DNA from: Campylobacterales bacterium
Lineage (GTDB): Bacteria; Campylobacterota; Campylobacteria; Campylobacterales; Sulfurovaceae
Assembly (NCBI GenBank): GCA_014763895.1
Contig: JACXUM010000001.1
Coordinates: 1 to 64,000, forward strand
Direction of reading: 5' to 3'
Length of the DNA: 64,000 bases
The translations under genes and the position numbers were made by a program. The notes beneath the pieces were generated by a model. The model saw nothing but the letters and a program-made list of their open reading frames with translations. It made no database searches and had not been told where the DNA came from. Below, piece by piece: positions 43,344 through 64,000 of the stretch. Positions within the stretch are counted from its first letter, which is position 1. Each line of letters opens with the position of its first letter.

Positions 43344-43364
43344 GTTTAGCGTTATTGACTAAAG
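43344..43364. promoter_or_regulatory. 21-nt element shared with the grpE upstream region
   Basis: GTTTAG, five variable bases, then TTGACTAAAG. It is matched at 17 of 21 positions by 62640-62660 upstream of grpE-dnaK. The arms TTTAG and CTAAA form an inverted repeat with a 9-nt spacer. It lies 40 bp before the htpG -10 box, suggesting a common heat-shock regulator. Confidence 0.55.
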
Positions 43365-43386
43365 TATCTTTCAAAAAAAATTGAAA

Positions 43387-43418
43387 TTTAGACAAAAATA
43401 TATTATAATTCGTCTAAA
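43387..43418 (+). promoter_or_regulatory. htpG -10 box between inverted-repeat arms
   Basis: TTTAGAC (43387-43393) and GTCTAAA (43412-43418) are exact inverted copies separated by 18 bp, and the TATAAT box (43404-43409) lies between them. A protein bound here would cover the promoter of htpG. Confidence 0.55.
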
Positions 43419-43442: not shown

Positions 43443-45305
43443 ATGGCAAAACATCAGTTTCAAGCTGAAATAGGTCAGTTATTAAAACTTATGACACACT
43501 CCTTGTATTCAAACAAAGAGGTCTTTATCCGTGAGTTGGTTTCCAATGCGAGCGATGCACTCGATAAATTCAACTATCTCTCATTAACAGATGAAACATT
43601 CAAAAATGAAGCATGGAAAGCGCAGATCAACATCGGGATCGATAAAGAGGACGGTTCATTGACTATCAGTGATAACGGGATAGGAATGAATGAAGAAGAT
43701 CTCATGAACCATCTTGGAACAATCGCAAAGTCAGGAACCAAATCATTCATAGAATCACTGACAGGCGATGCCAAAAAAGACTCCAATCTCATCGGACAGT
43801 TTGGGGTAGGGTTTTATTCTGTCTTTATGGTGGCAGACAAGGTTGATGTCATTACGAAAAAAGCAGGCGCGGAACAGGCTTATAAATTTTCTACGGATGG
43901 TACAGGGGAATTTGAGATCACTCCGGTGACCAAAGAGTCTCAGGGAACGATTATCTATATAACGCTTAAAGAGGATGAAAAAGAGTTTCTGGATACCTGG
44001 AGAGTCAAAGAGGTTGTGAAAAAGTACTCCAACCATATCGCTTATCCGATCATGTTGAATTATGCGGATGAAGAGTCAAGTGGTGAGGGAGAGTCAAAAG
44101 AGACGGAAAAAGTTAAAAAATCTGAACAGATCAATGCGGCATCTGCACTTTGGACACTCTCTAAATCCGAACTGAAAAAAGAGGATTACGTAGAGTTCTA
44201 TAAGACGATCTCACACGGTGATGAAGAGCCTTTGGCATATCTGCATAACAAAGTGGAGGGAGCCCAAGAGTTTACAACACTCTTTTATATACCCAAAACG
44301 GCACCGTTTGATCTTTACAGGGCAGACTATCAGCCTGGTGTCAAGCTCTATGTGAAGAGAGTATTCATTACCGATGATGAGAAGGAACTTTTGCCTTCTT
44401 ATCTGCGTTTTGTCAAAGGTATTATAGATAGTGAAGACCTCCCTTTGAATGTCTCCAGAGAAATTTTGCAGGAGAACAGAATTTTGGCCAATATCAGACA
44501 AAGTTCAGTCAAAAAGATACTTTTAGAGATCAAAAAGCTCCAAGGCGAAGAAGCCGATATCTTTACCGAGCAGTACAACAGGGTCATCAAAGAGGGTATC
44601 TTTACAGACCATACCAACAAAGAGACACTGCTTGAGATCGTTCGATATAAAAGCTCGAGCCAGGAAGGTCTTGTGAGTCTGGACGAGTATATTTCTCGTG
44701 GAAACAGTGAGAAAAAAGAGATCTATTATATCATCGGAAAAGATGAAAAGGTTTTGAGAAACTCGCCGTTGCTTGAAGCGTATAAAAAGGCGGAGATAGA
44801 AGTCCTTGTGATGGATGATGAAGAGGTTGATTCCATCGTGACTCCGATGATCGGTTCATTTAAAGCGTGGACATTGAAGGATATCACAACGATCGAAGCC
44901 CCCGATAGTAAAACTGAAGAAGAGAAAGAAGAGATTAGTAAAGAGTACCATTCTTTGACAGAACGTATCAAAGAGGTTTTGGGAGATGAAGTCAAAAATG
45001 TCAAAGTCTCTACTAGGCTTACCTCAAGCGCGTCGTGCGTCGTTAAAGACAGCAGTGATCCGATGGCCGGGATGGCACATCTGTTTGTCCAAATGGGCCA
45101 GAAAGTACCTGAAACACCTTTAATTCTGGAGATCAACCCTGAACATATGATGATCAAGAAAATGGATGCTTTGCAAGACAAAGAACTGTTTGGCGATGTG
45201 GCATGGATTCTTCTTGACAGTGCGAAATTATCAGAAGGTATGGAGCCTAAAGATAAAGCCCTATTTGCGCAAAGAGTGGCAAATTTGGCGGGCAAAGCAC
45301 TCTAA
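43443..45305 (+). CDS. htpG: molecular chaperone HtpG (Hsp90)
   Basis: The 620-residue ATP-dependent chaperone has the GHKL ATPase at its N terminus: ELVSNASDALDKF, then SDNGIGMNEEDL and GQFGVGFYSVFM. A charged linker near residues 215-228 is followed by the middle domain (ILQENRILANIR) and the C-terminal dimerisation domain. The length matches bacterial HtpG. It is monocistronic, with a strong terminator 6 bp after the stop codon and two regulatory repeats upstream. Confidence 0.96.
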   Translation: MAKHQFQAEIGQLLKLMTHSLYSNKEVFIRELVSNASDALDKFNYLSLTDETFKNEAWKAQINIGIDKEDGSLTISDNGIGMNEEDLMNHLGTIAKSGTKSFIESLTGDAKKDSNLIGQFGVGFYSVFMVADKVDVITKKAGAEQAYKFSTDGTGEFEITPVTKESQGTIIYITLKEDEKEFLDTWRVKEVVKKYSNHIAYPIMLNYADEESSGEGESKETEKVKKSEQINAASALWTLSKSELKKEDYVEFYKTISHGDEEPLAYLHNKVEGAQEFTTLFYIPKTAPFDLYRADYQPGVKLYVKRVFITDDEKELLPSYLRFVKGIIDSEDLPLNVSREILQENRILANIRQSSVKKILLEIKKLQGEEADIFTEQYNRVIKEGIFTDHTNKETLLEIVRYKSSSQEGLVSLDEYISRGNSEKKEIYYIIGKDEKVLRNSPLLEAYKKAEIEVLVMDDEEVDSIVTPMIGSFKAWTLKDITTIEAPDSKTEEEKEEISKEYHSLTERIKEVLGDEVKNVKVSTRLTSSASCVVKDSSDPMAGMAHLFVQMGQKVPETPLILEINPEHMMIKKMDALQDKELFGDVAWILLDSAKLSEGMEPKDKALFAQRVANLAGKAL

Positions 45306-61649: not shown

Positions 61650-62051
61650 TTATAATAAAATATCCCCCAATGTCAGTCCAAGTAGAAAATCATCGATTTT
61701 GATTTGAAATTTGAGTAAAAATGGAGAGATAGAACAACTTCCTATCGCACCGTGCGGGCAAGAATGGGTATATTGGGTGCAGTCAAATACCGCTGGCGTT
61801 TTGCCTTCAGCTGCAAAGATGACATCATAGACCGGAATTTCATGAATATCTTTTGCAAGTAAAAATCCTCCATGGGCGCCCTTCCTGGATTCTAAAATAC
61901 CTTGTTTTGCCAAATTCTGAAGGATTTTTGCCAGAAAACTTTTAGGGATATAGAGTTCATTTGCCAATTGCTCAGCACCGATCGGGCTCTCTGACTTGCG
62001 AATCGTATCTAAAGAAAGCAGGGCATATTCACTTGCTCGGGTTAATAACAT
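61650..62051 (-). CDS. Rrf2-family iron-sulfur transcriptional regulator
   Basis: The 133-residue winged-helix regulator starts MLLTRASEYALLSLDTI, with the recognition helix in IPKSFLAKILQNLAK. Three cysteines, C91, C98 and C106 (FDCTQYTHSCPHGAIGSC), form the cluster-ligand pattern of IscR/NsrR-like members, so it probably senses iron-sulfur status, oxidants or nitric oxide. It is monocistronic. Its own upstream region holds an 8-bp inverted repeat that fits autoregulation. Confidence 0.87.
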   Translation of the reverse strand: MLLTRASEYALLSLDTIRKSESPIGAEQLANELYIPKSFLAKILQNLAKQGILESRKGAHGGFLLAKDIHEIPVYDVIFAAEGKTPAVFDCTQYTHSCPHGAIGSCSISPFLLKFQIKIDDFLLGLTLGDILL

Positions 62052-62219: not shown

Positions 62220-62489
62220 ATGGCTTTGGATCAGGCGAAAAAAGCAGAAATTATTGCAAAACACGCTAGAGGCGATAGAGATACAGGTTCAGCAGAAGTT
62301 CAAGTCGCACTTCTTACAGAAAGAATCAACACACTTACTGCACACCTTCAAGCAAACAAAAAAGACCACTCTTCAAGAGTAGGACTACTTAAACTTGTAG
62401 GTCAGAGAAGAAGACTTATGAAGTATCTTAAAACTAAAGATATCAGCAGATGGAACGCTATCAAAGCTGAGCTAGGTATCAGAAACTAA
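62220..62489 (+). CDS. rpsO: 30S ribosomal protein S15
   Basis: The 89-residue protein binds the 16S rRNA central domain early in 30S assembly. The characteristic segments [51 protein letters not shown] are intact. AGGAGG lies a few bases before the ATG. It is monocistronic here and not next to pnp, unlike in E. coli. A UUCG-capped hairpin follows. Confidence 0.97.
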
Positions 62490-62639: not shown

Positions 62640-62660
62640 GTTTAGTAAAATTGACTAAAG
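62640..62660. promoter_or_regulatory. 21-nt element shared with the htpG upstream region
   Basis: GTTTAG, five variable bases, then TTGACTAAAG, matching 43344-43364 at 17 of 21 positions. TTTAGT and ACTAAA form an inverted repeat here with a 7-nt spacer. It lies 54 bp before the grpE -10 box and 124 bp before the grpE ATG. Confidence 0.55.
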
Positions 62661-62689
62661 TTTATTGTGAAAAAGTACTAAGAATATAC

Positions 62690-62719
62690 TTGACAAACTT
62701 TCACTCAATGTTGTATAAT
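62690..62719 (+). promoter_or_regulatory. sigma70 promoter for grpE-dnaK
   Basis: TTGACA (62690-62695) and TATAAT (62714-62719), both at consensus, are 18 bp apart. GCATT and AATGC with a 9-nt spacer flank the downstream sequence (62728-62746), but this is not the CIRCE sequence. Confidence 0.85.
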
Positions 62720-62783: not shown

Positions 62784-63326
62784 ATGAGCCAGGAGAGCGA
62801 AAATCTTCAGGAAGAACAGGCACAGGCAGAACAGAGTCAAATGCCAGAAGAGACTACACAAGAGGATCTTTTAGCACAAGCCCAGGCAGAGGCGAATGAA
62901 TATAAAGATAAATATATTCGTGCATATGCCGACTTTGAAAACTCCAAAAAACGTTTAGAAAAAGATAAAGCAAATGCTGTTGCGTATGCAAATGAAAGTT
63001 TTGCAAAAGACATTCTTGCCGTGATCGATTCTTTCGAACAGGCATTGGCATCGATCGAGAGTGCGGAGGGGGAAAGTGCCTCTGAAGTTCTTGAAAAGAT
63101 GAAAGAGGGTGTTAGATTGACATATGAGCAGCTGAAGAAAGTACTGGAAAAACATCAGATTAGAGAGATTGGATGCGAAGGTGCATTTGATCCTGAGGTA
63201 CATCAAGTGATCATGCAGGTTGACAGCCAGGGCCATCATGCCGGCGAGATTGTGCAGGTGATGCAAAAAGGGTATATGATCAAAGACAGAGTGCTTAGAC
63301 CTGCTATGGTCAGTACTGCAAAATAA
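62784..63326 (+). CDS. grpE: nucleotide exchange factor GrpE
   Basis: The 180-residue protein releases ADP from DnaK. It has a glutamine/glutamate-rich disordered N terminus, a long dimerising helix (ANEYKDKYIRAYADFENSKKR) and the C-terminal beta domain with VLEKHQIREIGCEGAFDPEVHQVIMQ and RPAMVSTAK. I start at the ATG at 62784 because GGAGG lies 8 nt upstream; an upstream GTG overlaps that site. No hrcA precedes it; rpsO does. dnaK follows after 28 bp. Confidence 0.94.
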   Translation: MSQESENLQEEQAQAEQSQMPEETTQEDLLAQAQAEANEYKDKYIRAYADFENSKKRLEKDKANAVAYANESFAKDILAVIDSFEQALASIESAEGESASEVLEKMKEGVRLTYEQLKKVLEKHQIREIGCEGAFDPEVHQVIMQVDSQGHHAGEIVQVMQKGYMIKDRVLRPAMVSTAK

Positions 63327-63354: not shown

Positions 63355-64000
63355 ATGGGTAAAGTATTGGGAATCGACTTAGGAACAACAAACTCTGCAA
63401 TGGCAGTGTATATCAATGGTGAAGCAGCGATCATCAACAATAAAGAAGGTAAAAACACAACACCTTCGATCGTTGCTTTTACAGATAAAGGGGAGGTGCT
63501 TGTTGGTGAAACAGCTAAAAGACAAGCCGTTACTAACCCTGAAAAAACAATCTATTCAATTAAGAGAATTATGGGATTGATGTGTGATGAGGAAAAAGCA
63601 GCTGAAGCCAAAGAGAGACTTCCATATCACATTATCGATAGAAACGGTGCATGTGCGATCGAAGTAGCAGGTAAAACTTATACGCCGCAGGAAATTTCTG
63701 CAAAAGTATTGATGAAACTTAAAGAAGATGCAGAAGCATATCTTGGTGAGACTGTAACAGATGCGGTTATTACAGTTCCTGCGTATTTTAACGATGCGCA
63801 AAGAAAAGCGACAAAAGAAGCAGGAACAATCGCTGGATTAAACGTACTGAGAATCATCAATGAGCCTACATCGGCTGCACTTGCATACGGATTGGATAAG
63901 AAAGGATCTGAGCAGATCGTCGTTTACGATCTTGGTGGTGGTACATTCGACGTTACTGCACTGGAAACAGGTGACGGTGTGGTTGAAGTTATGTCGACAG
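63355..64000 (+). CDS. dnaK: molecular chaperone DnaK, N-terminal part (3' end outside window)
   Basis: The first 215 residues of Hsp70 are present. They start [19 protein letters not shown], the phosphate 1 motif, and include [33 protein letters not shown] and the phosphate 2 motif [24 protein letters not shown] is the ribosome site. It is the second gene of the grpE transcript, and the chain continues beyond the window. DnaK works with GrpE here and with the DnaJ encoded about 5 kb upstream. Confidence 0.97.

Follow-up and report, generated by a model that had tools for sequence, protein, structure and literature searches.

Predicted HAIR-type operators of the repressor HspR at htpG and grpE-dnaK in a Sulfurovum genome with no detectable HrcA

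Two nearly identical 21-bp elements upstream of htpG and grpE-dnaK are, judging from their sequence and distribution, very probably HAIR-type operators of the heat-shock repressor HspR. Both lie in the window, that is, in the whole stretch of 64,000 nucleotides that was analysed, which belongs to a draft genome of 1.77 Mb (47 contigs, 99.8% complete) scanned here by pattern search. HAIR-type sites front at least five chaperone operons, htpG among them, and a small, nearly complete predicted heat-shock regulon is thereby identified in a vent-type chemoautotroph (Sulfurovum). The element itself is of an already known kind; the new part is the HspR-only wiring including htpG, and neither such wiring nor the membership of htpG in an HspR regulon was found in the open-licence literature searched.

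Predicted operators, promoters and their distribution

The preliminary description of this DNA reported two plus-strand copies of a 21-nt element, identical at 17 of 21 positions and lying 40 and 54 bp before the respective −10 boxes; copies, strand and offsets are all confirmed (Table 1). Exactly two places in the window match GTTTAGN5TTGACTAAAG perfectly, whereas the shuffled window yields a mean of 0.58 matches even at ≤3 mismatches. The imperfect inverted repeat that had been noted pairs better than described when read as two 7-bp arms around a 7-bp spacer, with 6/7 arm positions pairing in the grpE copy and 5/7 in the htpG copy. The associated core promoters match the sigma-70 consensus at 11/12 (htpG) and 12/12 (grpE-dnaK) bases, and the second, weaker box of grpE-dnaK is kept in nearly all Sulfurovum genomes examined. 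No hrcA gene lies in front of grpE in the window, the upstream slot being occupied by rpsO.

Table 1 Features of the htpG and grpE-dnaK regions and related elements (window coordinates, except for clpB, which is on contig C18 of the same genome)
Feature	Position	Strand	Details
HAIR-type HspR operator (predicted) of htpG	43344-43364	+	GTTTAGCGTTATTGACTAAAG; as 7-7-7, GTTTAGC-GTTATTG-ACTAAAG
htpG core promoter	43381-43409	+	−35 TTGAAA 43381-43386; 17-bp spacer; −10 TATAAT 43404-43409
htpG (Hsp90 chaperone)	43443-45305	+	NF003555, 707.5 bits
purD RNA motif RF01069	47074-47204	+	73.3 bits
Rrf2-type regulator gene	61650-62051	-	adjoins rpsO and grpE, an arrangement shared by many Sulfurovum genomes
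rpsO (S15 ribosomal protein gene)	62220-62489		upstream neighbour of grpE
HAIR-type HspR operator (predicted) of grpE-dnaK, upstream site	62640-62660	+	GTTTAGTAAAATTGACTAAAG; as 7-7-7, GTTTAGT-AAAATTG-ACTAAAG
Second, weaker HAIR-like box of grpE-dnaK	62689-62709	+	CTTGACAAACTTTCACTCAAT; as 7-7-7, CTTGACA-AACTTTC-ACTCAAT; overlaps −35
grpE-dnaK core promoter	62690-62719	+	−35 TTGACA 62690-62695; 18-bp spacer; −10 TATAAT 62714-62719
grpE (nucleotide exchange factor)	62784-63326	+	NCBIfam and Pfam
dnaK (start)	63355-64000	+	runs beyond window end
HAIR-related box of clpB	C18:31782-31802		CTTGACATGGATTGACTAAAG; −35 hexamer within left arm

The published HspR operator, HAIR (HspR-Associated Inverted Repeat), reads CTTGAGT-N7-ACTCAAG (PMC7464140). 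The pattern of the element, STTTAGT-N7-ACTAAAS, agrees with it in length, symmetry and spacer, forming like HAIR a 21-bp inverted repeat with 7-bp arms and a 7-bp spacer, and 10–11 of the 14 arm bases match this Streptomyces consensus; position 4 is mostly T here where Streptomyces has G, and position 18 mostly A where it has C. The deviation of the arms at 3–4/14 positions counts against the HspR reading; the HAIR-like sites already described in Campylobacter are also degenerate (PMC7464140). Measured against the published consensus, the best sites at grpE, groES, cbpA and clpB carry 3/14 mismatches (shuffle P 0.003–0.0085), and that at htpG carries 4/14 (shuffle P 0.057), so that the htpG case leans mainly on conservation.

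Across the whole 1.77-Mb genome, the relaxed pattern STTKAGT-N7-ACTMAAS, which was partly shaped on these sites, occurs at ≤1 mismatch in five places, four of which are the promoters of htpG, grpE-dnaK, groES-groEL (C36:11647) and cbpA-hspR (C11:40134), while the fifth (C22:68914) sits within a long reading frame. With a narrower pattern and two mismatches, every additional match examined falls in reading frames, and these were set aside; three mismatches give about 144 matches genome-wide. Boxes stand at the dnaK, clpB and groESL promoters, as is expected of an HspR regulon. The preliminary description had proposed that a shared regulator of heat shock binds the element, an idea to be checked by a genome-wide motif scan and endangered if the motif were absent from groESL and other heat-shock genes of relatives. 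Matches do gather upstream of heat-shock genes, groES-groEL included, and the sites are conserved in relatives, which supports that proposal; it is narrowed here to a predicted HAIR-type operator of HspR.

Among 14 Sulfurovum genomes, the box is present at cbpA-hspR and at clpB in all, and at htpG in all but one (G019, L135), where there is no good site; the grpE and groES boxes recur in those genomes examined. The arms reach 1.6–1.9 bits per position across the genus, a value inflated by the picking of sites through pattern match, although the reappearance of the sites at equivalent promoters and positions is independent of that. Spacers at htpG, grpE and groES have about 0.8–1.0 bits per position, and the 5′ flanks 0.55–0.82. 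From HAIR centre to −10, the distance at htpG is 50 bp in nearly all relatives, 61 bp in two and 38 bp in another family; it is 38 or 60 bp at groES, 41 or 63–65 bp at grpE, and 19 bp at cbpA, where the box overlaps the −35. These distances shift mostly in steps of ~11 or 22 bp, the grpE steps (22–24 bp) fitting less well. The alternative spacings at htpG and groES, roughly one to two helix turns apart, suggest that the bound protein has to remain facing polymerase. Tested strictly with all distances pooled, periodicity is weak (mean vector 0.46–0.54), since the data include the grpE class and promoter assignments of low quality; the discrete steps alone are reported.

Two further placements of such boxes were seen in relatives. 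In six Sulfurovum genomes (L382-L387; for example, L386:992-1012) a gene for a MoxR-type AAA+ ATPase (Pfam AAA_3, bpMoxR) is immediately preceded by a HAIR-like sequence, CTTTAGT-TAACCTC-ACTCAAG, which persists although the gene before the box differs between genomes; moxR is a possible extra HspR target, and at one mismatch no such box was seen in the genome of the window. Two relatives carry another HAIR box between grpE and dnaK (G016:C1:539070, L055; G035:C29:846, L054).

The predicted regulator and competing explanations

Exactly one MerR_1 gene was detected in the genome, and this gene is hspR: its product passes the curated NF047375 cut-off (123.5 versus 105 bits), and it lies directly 3′ of a cbpA-type dnaJ gene. 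The cbpA-hspR promoter carries its box over the −35, so autoregulation of hspR would be expected. Within the order, HspR was found in 32 of 34 genomes surveyed, with a strongly conserved DNA-binding region.

One could take the element for a CIRCE variant bound by HrcA: HAIR and CIRCE alike are inverted repeats of chaperone promoters, and HrcA is widespread in the order, being detected in 100 of 159 genomes. CIRCE, TTAGCACTC-N9-GAGTGCTAA, is 27 bp long (9-9-9, with TTAGCACTC arms) instead of 21 bp (7-7-7), and was not found; its best matches in these promoters have 7–8/18 mismatches, bearing out the earlier remark that the element does not fit the CIRCE consensus. Moreover, a profile built from HrcA genes adjoining grpE detected no HrcA in the window's genome or in 13 other Sulfurovum genomes, whereas the same profile works elsewhere, finding HrcA in 12 of 20 genomes from other families, as well as in the 100 of the order counted above. 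The CIRCE mismatches together with the lack of a detectable hrcA led us to reject this very improbable identity; HrcA is excluded as the binder because no hrcA gene was detected. As a separate observation, the Pfam model PF01628 (HrcA) misses even clear HrcA proteins of Campylobacterales; its negative result was discarded, and surveys relying on it would wrongly call HrcA absent from Campylobacterales.

The upstream boxes might instead serve an activator, either HspR or another factor contacting RNA polymerase, as class I sites at roughly −50, −62 or −72 from the transcription start. MerR-family proteins are usually activators, and the spacing steps of ~11 or 22 bp (38/50/61 and 38/60) are as for a protein on one helix face, a phase to which grpE conforms less well. 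But at cbpA-hspR and clpB these arms lie over the −35, so that a protein bound there would obstruct polymerase, and HspR of H. pylori and C. jejuni binds upstream at gro and hrc yet represses; activation is therefore unlikely. A different binder, such as the Rrf2-type protein encoded close to grpE in this and many other Sulfurovum genomes, is highly improbable: the box also stands at htpG, and at groES, cbpA-hspR and clpB on other contigs, it occurs in other families with no Rrf2 neighbour, and it resembles HAIR and presumably no known Rrf2 site. Finally, AT-rich inverted repeats of this kind are common, as the tally of matches at three mismatches attests, and two AT-rich upstream regions could resemble each other by accident. 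The probability of this is negligible, and chance similarity is contradicted by the conservation of the element at matching promoters and positions throughout the genus and by shuffled upstream regions, which match at ≤1 mismatch in 0.2% of cases.

Repression by HspR alone, with neither HrcA nor CIRCE detectable, is the best reading of these data by analogy with characterized systems; upstream placement, which is atypical of a repressor where the core promoter has no HrcA bound to it, speaks against it. From the behaviour of HspR in H. pylori, C. jejuni and Streptomyces we infer binding, repression, cooperative spreading and release upon heat shock. At normal temperature, an HspR dimer would bind the 7-7-7 repeat upstream of the htpG, grpE-dnaK and groES-groEL promoters, and further dimers would bind cooperatively, cover the core promoter and exclude RNA polymerase. 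At cbpA-hspR and clpB, where the box is on the −35 itself, repression would be direct, and HspR would control its own operon; htpG and groESL would be repressed by upstream nucleation and spreading, and grpE-dnaK, with its two boxes, in both ways. As unfolded protein builds up, HspR would be released, and all these chaperone operons would be induced together.

htpG promoters across the Campylobacterales

A comparison of 144 htpG promoters, 62 from HrcA-less and 82 from HrcA-bearing genomes, revealed a HAIR box at ≤1 mismatch in 33/62 of the former versus 2/82 of the latter (Fisher 4e-13). Outside the family of the window's genome the counts are 15/37 versus 2/82, and by genus 10/23 versus 2/31 (P 0.002). 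By contrast, CIRCE at ≤4 mismatches occurs in 0/62 HrcA-less and 22/82 HrcA-bearing cases. Shuffled htpG upstream regions match HAIR and CIRCE at those thresholds in 0.2% and 0.04% of cases, respectively. A tree of HtpG fragments offers only 2 well-supported independent contrasts, 7 over all branches, and an association of HrcA loss with a HAIR box at htpG is therefore not claimed as proven; it is a strong lead from promoter sequences and not a demonstrated replacement.

In one HrcA-less family, the htpG promoters mostly have neither HAIR nor CIRCE. Two HrcA-bearing families (f8 and f14; for example, L116 and L248) have CIRCE and a HAIR-like box together at htpG, and promoters of this kind are plausible intermediates. 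The overall pattern suggests that one repressor replaced another at the same htpG promoter. Tentatively, HspR may now be the sole heat-shock repressor in HrcA-less Campylobacterales, having taken over htpG from HrcA, with a near-perfect HAIR in place of CIRCE and with groESL and htpG repressed from a helically phased upstream site that has no HrcA partner; this wider proposal could well be mistaken.

Comparison with known HspR systems

The upstream position taken by HspR at gro and hrc in C. jejuni and H. pylori is puzzling, and has been interpreted jointly with HrcA binding to the core promoter. The present genome offers a natural HspR-only system: since the upstream placement persists with no detectable HrcA, HspR repression from there becomes testable alone.

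The closest likeness is to C. jejuni (Pcbp, Pclp, Pgro and Phrc; PMC7464140), with which the 21-bp 7-7-7 repeat, the target operons cbpA-hspR, clpB, groESL and dnaK, and the possession of multiple sites by the dnaK operon are shared. Footprints of C. jejuni HspR cover the core promoter at cbp and clp; at gro and hrc, whose core promoters are occupied by HrcA, they lie upstream (PMC7464140). The same split recurs here, with core-overlapping boxes at cbpA and clpB and upstream boxes at gro and grpE. C. jejuni also uses HrcA, whose CIRCE elements lie on the core promoters of gro and hrc; neither HrcA nor CIRCE was found here, and htpG, which carries a site in the Sulfurovum genome, is not mentioned in that study (PMC7464140).

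In H. pylori, a single HAIR box nucleates HspR binding, from which the protein extends across about 70 bp (PMC6102357). The single central box as nucleation point, the groESL and dnaK operons as targets and the autoregulation of cbpA-hspR, all predicted in our case, are common to both systems (PMC6102357, PMC6032397). Unlike the circuit proposed here, that of H. pylori involves co-regulation with HrcA, and its four ChIP-seq sites exclude htpG (PMC6102357, PMC6032397).
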